IMG/VR virus record: IMGVR_UViG_3300044533_000985 | Location: 1-20,264 of that record | DNA length: 20,264 bases | Source of the DNA: a virus | Reading direction: 5' to 3' (one strand) | Program-made: the position numbers and the translations under genes | In this document: piece after piece, positions 3,361 to 16,156 of the stretch | How positions within the stretch are numbered: the stretch's first letter is position 1 | Layout of the letters: each line of letters opens with the position of its first letter | The notes under the pieces: model-generated | The model's database searches: none | The model's input: only the letters and a program-made list of their open reading frames with translations | What the model was told of the DNA's origin: nothing

Positions 3361-3389
3361 AGTGTTGCAGTTGTCTGGAGTCGTGTCAA
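3361..3389 (-). promoter_or_regulatory. Putative promoter of the HTH-recT-exonuclease operon
   Basis: Reading the minus strand, a perfect TTGACA (3389-3384) is followed after 17 nt by AACACT (3366-3361), a weak -10 sharing three of six bases with TATAAT. Transcription would start near 3354, so the mRNA would contain the whole three-way-junction leader. The -35 overlaps the stop codon of the upstream coiled-coil gene. A second TTGACA with the same 17-nt spacing precedes that gene. Confidence 0.35.
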
Positions 3390-3967
3390 CGGCAAATCAT
3401 CATTGCCTTGCGAAGATTTTCTTTTTGCTCCGCTTCCAGCTCTTTTTGACGCTTTTCTTGGGCGATCAGCGCAATTCGGTTGGCCTCCTCCATGTCGATG
3501 TATGGAATGAACGCGTCGCTGTCGTCGATTTCAGTCCGCTCATCATGCTCGACCGGCGAATCCTCTGCATCACCCTCTTGCTTCTCATTGCCGTTCTTGC
3601 GCTTGGACTTGGTTCGCTTCTTCAAAATCTCGACCTCCTTGGCCAACCTTCGAAGCTCGGATCGAACCGCAGCAACCTGCCGCTCCAAGGACCGATGCTC
3701 ACGCAGGATCGAAAGCTCGCTTGTCTCCGCATCGCTCGGTCTGAACGAACAACCCTTCCATTGCCGCTCGATCTTATCGAAGACCAGCACCCGACACTTC
3801 GGATGGCGCATCGAGTTGAAGAGCCGAACCGCCTTGGACATGTCGCAGGACATCTCCTGGCAGATGTAGGCCAGTACTTCAGACTTCGCCGTGTCAACGT
3901 CGTGCGTCTTCGGCGGCATCTCGCTGAACATTGTTCTGGGGGTCTTCCCCGTTGGTAGAAAGCTCAT
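3386..3967 (-). CDS. Coiled-coil protein of unknown function (193 aa)
   Basis: Not recognised. Residues about 22-60 form a compact mixed region (DTAKSEVLAYICQEMSCD and so on). A heptad-like segment (SELSILREHRSLERQVAAVR and onward) at about 83-115 should be a coiled coil, followed by a Lys/Arg-rich stretch near 117-125, an acidic stretch and a final charged helix rich in Glu, Lys and Gln. The layout suggests a DNA- or protein-bridging accessory. It stands alone, with a structured non-coding segment upstream and a leader region downstream. Met13 and Met17 are alternative starts. Confidence 0.65.
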   Translation of the reverse strand: MSFLPTGKTPRTMFSEMPPKTHDVDTAKSEVLAYICQEMSCDMSKAVRLFNSMRHPKCRVLVFDKIERQWKGCSFRPSDAETSELSILREHRSLERQVAAVRSELRRLAKEVEILKKRTKSKRKNGNEKQEGDAEDSPVEHDERTEIDDSDAFIPYIDMEEANRIALIAQEKRQKELEAEQKENLRKAMMICR

Positions 3968-3977
3968 AACGAACTCT

Positions 3978-4006
3978 AGTCTGCGGTTAGATCATCCTCT
4001 TGTCAA
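3978..4006 (-). promoter_or_regulatory. Weak candidate promoter for the coiled-coil gene
   Basis: On the minus strand a perfect TTGACA (4006-4001) is followed, 17 nt later, by CAGACT (3983-3978), which has only three matches to a -10 consensus. The same -35, spacing and A-x-A-C-T -10 pattern occurs before the HTH gene, so the two may be served by the same polymerase form. The start site would lie very close to the ATG at 3967. Confidence 0.3.
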
Positions 4007-4087
4007 CACCATGTTTTTCGTTTTCTGAATTCACGGTTCGTTTCCTGCACTTCTCGGTTAGCTTGCGCTGTTAGCTATTTCACTAAA

Positions 4088-4275
4088 ATGAAACCCTCCT
4101 TGGTATTAAAAAACCAAGGAGGTAAGGGTTTCATCACGAAACCGTTTTGCTTCGCTCCCCGCCTTGAACGGCGGTGTCGCAAACGGTTCGGATGAAACGG
4201 AAGAGAAAACGCCGCTCAATCGACCCATCGACATAGCGTTCAAACGCTCTAAACGCCTCGCTGGCGCGTTTTGAT
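4088..4275 (-). other. Hairpin-rich non-coding segment with mutually exclusive stems
   Basis: The gap between the genes ending at 4400 and starting at 3967 is 432 nt. It holds four inverted repeats. Stem A pairs 4088-4096 with 4126-4134 and encloses 4097-4103 with 4114-4120. Stem B pairs 4128-4150 with 4179-4198 (20 bp with three single-base bulges) and encloses CCGCC/GGCGG (4159-4163, 4170-4174). There is a tight AGCGTT/AACGCT palindrome at 4235-4248, and AACGCC/GGCG(c)GTT lies at 4252-4270. Stems A and B share 4128-4134, so only one can form at a time. A 78-aa reading frame (4106-4342) spans the segment but looks like a by-product. Possible roles are an attenuator, non-coding RNA, origin or packaging site. 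Confidence 0.5.
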
Positions 4276-4399
4276 TGTCGGATGATGTGTTGGTAGCGGA
4301 CGGGGTTTTCGCGACGCTAGAATCGAATCGGTGAAATGACATGGGTTTGGATGCGCTAGGGTTGGCCGACGGTTGGTAGAAAGTTAGATGGACTGGAAG

Positions 4400-4654
4400 T
4401 TAGACGGACTTTCCGCCATCACGCTCAACGACCGGATACACATCATAATCCTCCGCCATGTCCTTCGGCACGACCCTGATCCGACCTTGCGTGTACTCGT
4501 TGGGGTTGAGGTCTTTGGCCGCTTGCTCCGCCTCCTTGCGCGTGGCGAATATGATCGTCTCGTAGCTCACCGTCCGCTGCTTCACGTCGGACCAGCCAAT
4601 CGACCCGCTGATCTGAACCTTGTAACGCGTCGGCGCGAAAAGATTGCGGCTCAT
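4400..4654 (-). CDS. Small hypothetical protein (84 aa)
   Basis: Not recognised. The sequence has the look of a small alpha/beta protein: strands around YKVQISGSIGWSDV and YETIIFATR, a helix EAEQAAKDLN, then a strand GRIRVVPKD and an acidic tail. The ATFA-like 'ATRKEAEQAAKDLNP' segment resembles small phage proteins that carry an amphipathic helix after a beta hairpin. Its ATG overlaps the stop of the MazG-like gene (ATGA), so it is translationally coupled. It is the last gene before the hairpin-rich segment. Confidence 0.72.
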   Translation of the reverse strand: MSRNLFAPTRYKVQISGSIGWSDVKQRTVSYETIIFATRKEAEQAAKDLNPNEYTQGRIRVVPKDMAEDYDVYPVVERDGGKSV

Positions 4655-7994: not shown

Positions 7995-8663
7995 TCAACC
8001 GGCCGTTGTGATTCGTTGAACGCGTTTGGCACCCGTTCCATGTGGCTTGAAACCGACAATGAAGCCACGGTTGCCCTTGGCGCATAGGCGGCACTTGTCG
8101 CATGACAGGCTGTCAACGCGCTGCGCAGGACACACGACAACGCGGTTGCCTTCCGGTGTCGTGAAACGGTCCGGGCTGTCCTGAGGGATAACAGCTGCAA
8201 CCGGAAGGCCTAGTTTGACCAATTGGTCGGCATGCGAAACAGAGTTTGCAGACAGATTGACAACGAAACCGCGCTCATTGGCGGACCGAATCGCGGACAG
8301 GTTATCTGGAGTCAGCGGCTTGTGAGTATAGGTGAAACCGCGCTTTCCGGTGTTTGCTTCCGTCAATTGCGAAAGAGCGGTTGCGTCAATATTGTCACCG
8401 ACACCGGGCAAGTCACCGGCTTGGTTGTGACGCCACAATTGACCAGCTGGGAAAGTGCGGACCTTGGCAAGGAAGGAAGACCAGTCGAAACCGCGCTGTC
8501 CGCTTGTAACCTTTGACCAGTGCAACGCAAGCGGACCGGAGTCGGCATAGCAACCGTCTTTCTTGAACGGGCATGCGTCAGAGCAAGTGACGGCCGACGA
8601 TGTGGAAACCGGAATCGGTCCGGTTTTCGCGTTGGAAGAGACTAGAGTGAGGTGGACTTTCAT
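7995..8663 (-). CDS. Cys-cluster phage protein resembling DUF7227
   Basis: A 222-aa protein. It starts MKVHLTLVSSNAKTGPIPVS and carries an N-terminal Cys cluster (C-x3-C-x5-C in TCSDACPFKKDGCYA, residues about 27-40) and a C-terminal cluster (C-x2-C-x2-C in SCDKCRLCA, about 187-194). The middle has alternating alpha/beta elements, for example GDLPGVGDNIDATALSQLTE and TGKRGFTYTHKPLTPDNLSA. Sequences of this type occur in many phages and plasmids, related in style to mycobacteriophage Gp88 proteins, with unknown function. The Cys pattern suggests an Fe-S or zinc site. Its ATG follows the 39-aa membrane protein by 19 nt with an ATCAATCAAATCC leader. Confidence 0.8.
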   Translation of the reverse strand: MKVHLTLVSSNAKTGPIPVSTSSAVTCSDACPFKKDGCYADSGPLALHWSKVTSGQRGFDWSSFLAKVRTFPAGQLWRHNQAGDLPGVGDNIDATALSQLTEANTGKRGFTYTHKPLTPDNLSAIRSANERGFVVNLSANSVSHADQLVKLGLPVAAVIPQDSPDRFTTPEGNRVVVCPAQRVDSLSCDKCRLCAKGNRGFIVGFKPHGTGAKRVQRITTAG

Positions 8664-16123: not shown

Positions 16124-16156
16124 AGCCCCCGGTGGTAATTGAAACCATCGGGGGCT
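16124..16156. terminator. Bidirectional terminator between converging arms
   Basis: A 13-bp stem (16124-16136 with 16144-16156, one G-U pair, 7-nt loop, GC-rich AGCCCCC/GGGGGCT base). It is followed by TTTT on the minus-strand reading and by a weaker T-rich stretch on the plus strand. It lies between a plus gene ending at 16117 and a minus gene ending at 16164, so it should end both transcripts. Confidence 0.8.

Follow-up and report, generated by a model that had tools for sequence, protein, structure and literature searches.

The put RNA of HK022, which acts directly on RNA polymerase, is an example of conserved stem-loops that follow one another in early phage transcripts. Where RNase III processes phage messages, long double-stranded RNA lies between genes of one strand. 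In lambda, the nut site and the N protein place a structured RNA in an early operon beside a phage regulatory gene (PMC4496710).

The locus presented here belongs to an uncultured bacterial virus, the 20,264-base virus record IMGVR_UViG_3300044533_000985; this whole stretch of DNA is called the window. Its minus-strand genes span positions 8663 down to 80, in the order small genes, p84, a 432-nt gap, p193, an excisionase-like gene, RecT, exonuclease VIII, a single-strand binding protein and ThyX, with no clear Shine-Dalgarno motif at the gene starts. Searches with p193 and p84 led to many viral contigs carrying three hairpins of different letters directly upstream of p193. For the present analysis they were grouped into eleven sequence types (A to K), which are related and not independent lineages.

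Three hairpins in the gap upstream of p193

Comparison with the related contigs placed three consecutive hairpins, P1 to P3, on the minus (transcribed) strand. The features of the gap and its flanking genes are as follows.

4400-4654, minus strand: p84, a conserved upstream gene
4381-4403, minus strand: a tandem pair of CTAACTT motifs at the gap's upstream end
4128-4198, minus strand: P1, a long hairpin whose outer helix, at its base, is the stem B discussed below
4095-4122, minus strand: P2, a GC-rich hairpin with a U-rich loop
4077-4094, minus strand: P3, GTTTCAT-TTTA-GTGAAAT, followed by AG
4106-4342, minus strand: an open frame of 78 aa overlapping P1 and P2, judged to be no gene
4001-4006, minus strand: TTGACA, resembling a -35 element, 39 nt before the ATG of p193
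3386-3967, minus strand: p193, always the next gene after the hairpins

The gap length given in an earlier note on this DNA was confirmed (3968-4399). That note had missed P3, the 5' arm of which supplies one strand of the note's stem A, and had listed further hairpins up to 4270; these were not confirmed as a feature, since 4342-4199 folds no better than shuffled sequences (z +0.35). For the minus strand of 4198-4075 the folding energy is -58.5, and its shuffles average -29.3 (z -8.1, 0/1000). The plus strand of the same interval also beats its shuffles (z -6.7). The minus strand is the more stable one in the representatives of all eleven types and in 41 of 45 unique sequences, which indirectly favours P1-P3 acting as RNA on the transcribed strand.

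The tip of P1, CCGCC..GGCGG, is almost invariant across types. The loop of P2 is UUUUUAAU in the window and UUUA or similar in other types, and TAG follows P3 in every type. A P2+P3 descriptor found each locus to have a single copy of the hairpins, constant in place and strand, with no further copies of the element in the loci examined. Rfam 15 gave no family at or above its gathering score, either for the window or for eight relatives belonging to other types (best weak match E 1.4, far under the cut-off). Elsewhere in the window, its strongest terminator-like hairpin (16124-16156, 13 pairs) lies between converging operons and holds in its loop and tail TTGAAAC and TTGTTTCAG, the same words as in the arms of P1 and P3.

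Covariation among the relatives

The hairpins are kept in all eleven types although their stems differ. Because the relatives keep them while almost every letter changes, the RNA shape is, on this comparative evidence, under selection. In an alignment of types A, B, C, G and H, 81.2% of cells pair, a level reached by 0/500 shuffles and compared with 37-59% in slid versions. Most of the covariation of this alignment sits in P1, where 9 of 17 pairs have changed on both sides. P2 and P3 are weak in it (2/12 and 1/5 pairs) because the aligner shifts helices between types, P3 by one column, and these two hairpins were therefore counted in gapless rows.

In those rows, which were picked after folding, both-side changes were found at 7/7 pairs of P2 (19 cells vs 5.4 in shuffles; two inner arms joined, loop removed, type J omitted) and at 4/6 pairs of P3 (12 cells vs 4.2; types F, I, J and K omitted), the omitted types having unfit loops or lengths. 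Since the rows were selected as hairpins, their 100% pairing is circular and it is the variety of pairs that constitutes evidence. For each of P1, P2 and P3 the both-side cells exceeded all 500 shuffles; the number of further pair types alone was not above shuffles in the P2 and P3 rows. Across types the loops are conserved and the stems change. A comparison of arms, with stem limits set by hand after folding, agrees with the covariation (0.92-0.94 within types vs 0.42-0.65 between types).

The p193 gene and a proposed transcription border

The p193 protein consists of an N-terminal part, a coiled coil and exchangeable C-terminal tails. The tails (3386-3500 in the window, and in relatives) are of several short kinds, and similar proteins have exchanged one kind for another. 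The N-terminal part is perhaps a winged helix, according to a model of low confidence (pLDDT ~70, Z ~3); a second model lacks the wing. Foldseek with this domain returned no match under E 0.1, and fold searches of p193 gave no clear match, an absence that tells little. An NCBIfam assignment to MoeZ was disregarded (18 bits vs a cut-off of 647). A Pirellula bin has p193 on a single short contig, and the search found it in no other genome of that phylum (391 covered), so the host is a hint only. No tyrosine integrase was found in 12 long, possibly incomplete records. In the literature searched, nothing describes the three-hairpin element or planctomycete phages of such kind.

Because a protein search alone could create the link between hairpins and p193, loci were also fetched with the hairpin sequences of types C and E/F as the only query (n=71, some on contigs already known). 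Four were too short; p193 was the next gene in 67/67 testable loci, and 62 of them had TTGAC at -38/-39. Distances between elements correlate with those of the p193 N-terminus (r 0.88), the p193 C-terminus (0.63), the excisionase-like gene (0.46), p84 (0.16) and recT (0.04). Coupling is 0.67 for the sequence just upstream of the hairpins vs 0.85-0.86 for the promoter region and p193. This pattern fits an exchange between phages of hairpins, promoter region and p193 N-terminal half, largely as one cassette. It may also come from linkage alone, because coupling falls off with distance, as linkage would also produce.

Between p84 and the hairpins some relatives carry other genes: cytosine methyltransferase-like, acetyltransferase-like, or a short frame. 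This cargo site is seen in L002, L010, L048 and L061, in L006 and L082, and in L008 and L013. The 47.7 kb contig IMGVR_UViG_3300042456_000346, whose two ends hold L044/L253 and L007/L085, has a type C element at one end and one of type A at the opposite end, perhaps reflecting populations mixed at the cassette.

In 155/159 loci TTGAC lies 38 or 39 nt ahead of the p193 start. The -10 hexamers are poor (CAGACT, 3978-3983, in the window), and a consensus sigma-70 scan found no promoter at the TTGACA site. From the position of the motif we infer a putative p193 promoter with a very short leader. In L147 and L149, TTGACGCGAGCAGAAGTGAA occurs twice in tandem before p193, as if the promoter had been duplicated. 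An exact 12-nt direct repeat, GTTGGTAGAAAG, lies at both ends of the gap (3951-3962 and 4372-4383).

The reading that we favour, with chances somewhat short of even, is that P1-P3 are an RNA marking the border of two transcription units, with hairpins, promoter and p193 N-terminal half forming a cassette. P1-P3 would act as RNA within transcripts coming from the upstream gene block; by stopping these messages or having them processed, they would mark where that block ends. Then p193 and the recombination genes behind it would be read from a promoter of their own, with a leader that is minimal or absent.

P2 ranks with the window's best terminator-like sites and is the GC-rich hairpin expected of an intrinsic terminator. 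A U-rich stretch (6-9 of 12) follows it in 7/11 types. A U run directly after the hairpin is not general: in types D, E, F and K the 12 nt behind P2 contain just 3-4 U, and in these types P3 has no U run behind it either. Intrinsic termination cannot be the general function because these four types are without the U stretch, and processing, protein binding or another role must therefore be allowed.

Other explanations and known systems

One alternative is that p193, or a host factor that it recruits, would bind the P1-P3 RNA and so control read-through or expression, as lambda N does at nut, or bring about autoregulation. It would explain why p193 always follows the hairpins, why hairpin type goes with p193 N-terminal type more closely than the upstream sequence does, and why loops are conserved and stems change. 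We still consider it rather unlikely: linkage could give the same association, the presumed p193 transcript begins downstream of the hairpins, and the predicted p193 fold resembles, weakly, DNA-binding winged helices. As a partner of the RNA, p193 is an attractive and unproven candidate. A bolder version, in which P1-P3 and the p193 N-terminal domain are a cognate RNA-protein pair, a transcription-control system not yet described, in uncultured phages (probably of planctomycetes) whose stems and protein types are exchanged together, is more doubtful still.

The gap could instead work as a DNA element, a replication origin or operator region where p193 is initiator or regulator at the TAACTT motifs. 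TAACTT occurs at 4.49 per kb in the gap region of relatives vs 0.16 elsewhere, a 27-fold enrichment at fixed places; p193 is possibly a winged helix, and replication and recombination genes follow it. Against this, the strand preference in every type is as expected for RNA with G-U pairs, and the motif stays constant across hairpin types. The earlier note had also thought of an origin, and its proposed check by GC skew gave no support: cumulative minima in four genomes lie 2-4 kb away from the element and do not all fall on the same side of it (a fifth had no usable minimum). We regard a DNA element as an improbable account.

It was first proposed that this was an attenuator, a switch between two exclusive stems, or a phage ncRNA. 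A conserved structured phage RNA is upheld by the covariation across the many relatives; the switch is not. Both stems are real, and in the window each is fully complementary (stem A, 10 nt, 4088-4097/4125-4134; stem B, 8 nt, 4128-4135/4191-4198), with GTTTCAT at 4128-4134 common to the two and an inner hairpin within each, and stem A is present in types A, B and C. However, with the P1 5' arm and the P3 3' arm blocked in the fold, the stem A state is 10.2 kcal/mol worse in the window (probability ~1e-4), 10-16 kcal/mol worse across types A, B and C, and 10-20 kcal/mol worse in types other than the window's. Stem A is missing from types D-K, and two comparably stable exclusive folds are not kept in relatives. 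A further idea, that P3 must always repeat an earlier arm and would so preserve some competition, was also rejected; it was drawn up post hoc and covers 6/11 types, D, E and F being related, with 370/5000 swaps as high. The switch is thus rejected on energies and relatives, and we give it very little probability.

That the hairpins are part of a 78-aa protein gene deserves hardly any credence, for although most types have long open frames and the stretch ARRLERL is well conserved, the frame conservation that the earlier note had itself set against an RNA is absent, with substitutions even over codon positions (46/48/45), a synonymous share of 0.20 vs 0.25 expected, early truncation in several loci and hence no coding selection.

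P1-P3 are a well-supported structured RNA beside a gene family missing from the isolated-phage collection searched; no match came from Rfam, PHROG, Pfam or the isolated phages. Its many natural types amount to compensatory mutants already at hand, so that it is directly testable whether RNA pairing is needed and whether it has to suit p193.

Like intrinsic (rho-independent) terminators, the element has in P2 a GC-rich hairpin, with a U-rich stretch in most types, at a transcription-unit border. Unlike them it has not one hairpin but three, all conserved and with conserved loops, and some types lack the stretch. With RNase III sites it shares the predicted long double-stranded P1 between same-strand genes. 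With HK022 put RNA it shares consecutive conserved stem-loops; sequence and host differ. Searches made with p193 gave no likeness to lambda N. The hairpins here lie upstream of the presumed p193 promoter, unlike lambda nut, and only co-inheritance ties them to p193; what recalls nut and N is the type-specific pairing of an RNA with its adjoining gene (PMC4496710).
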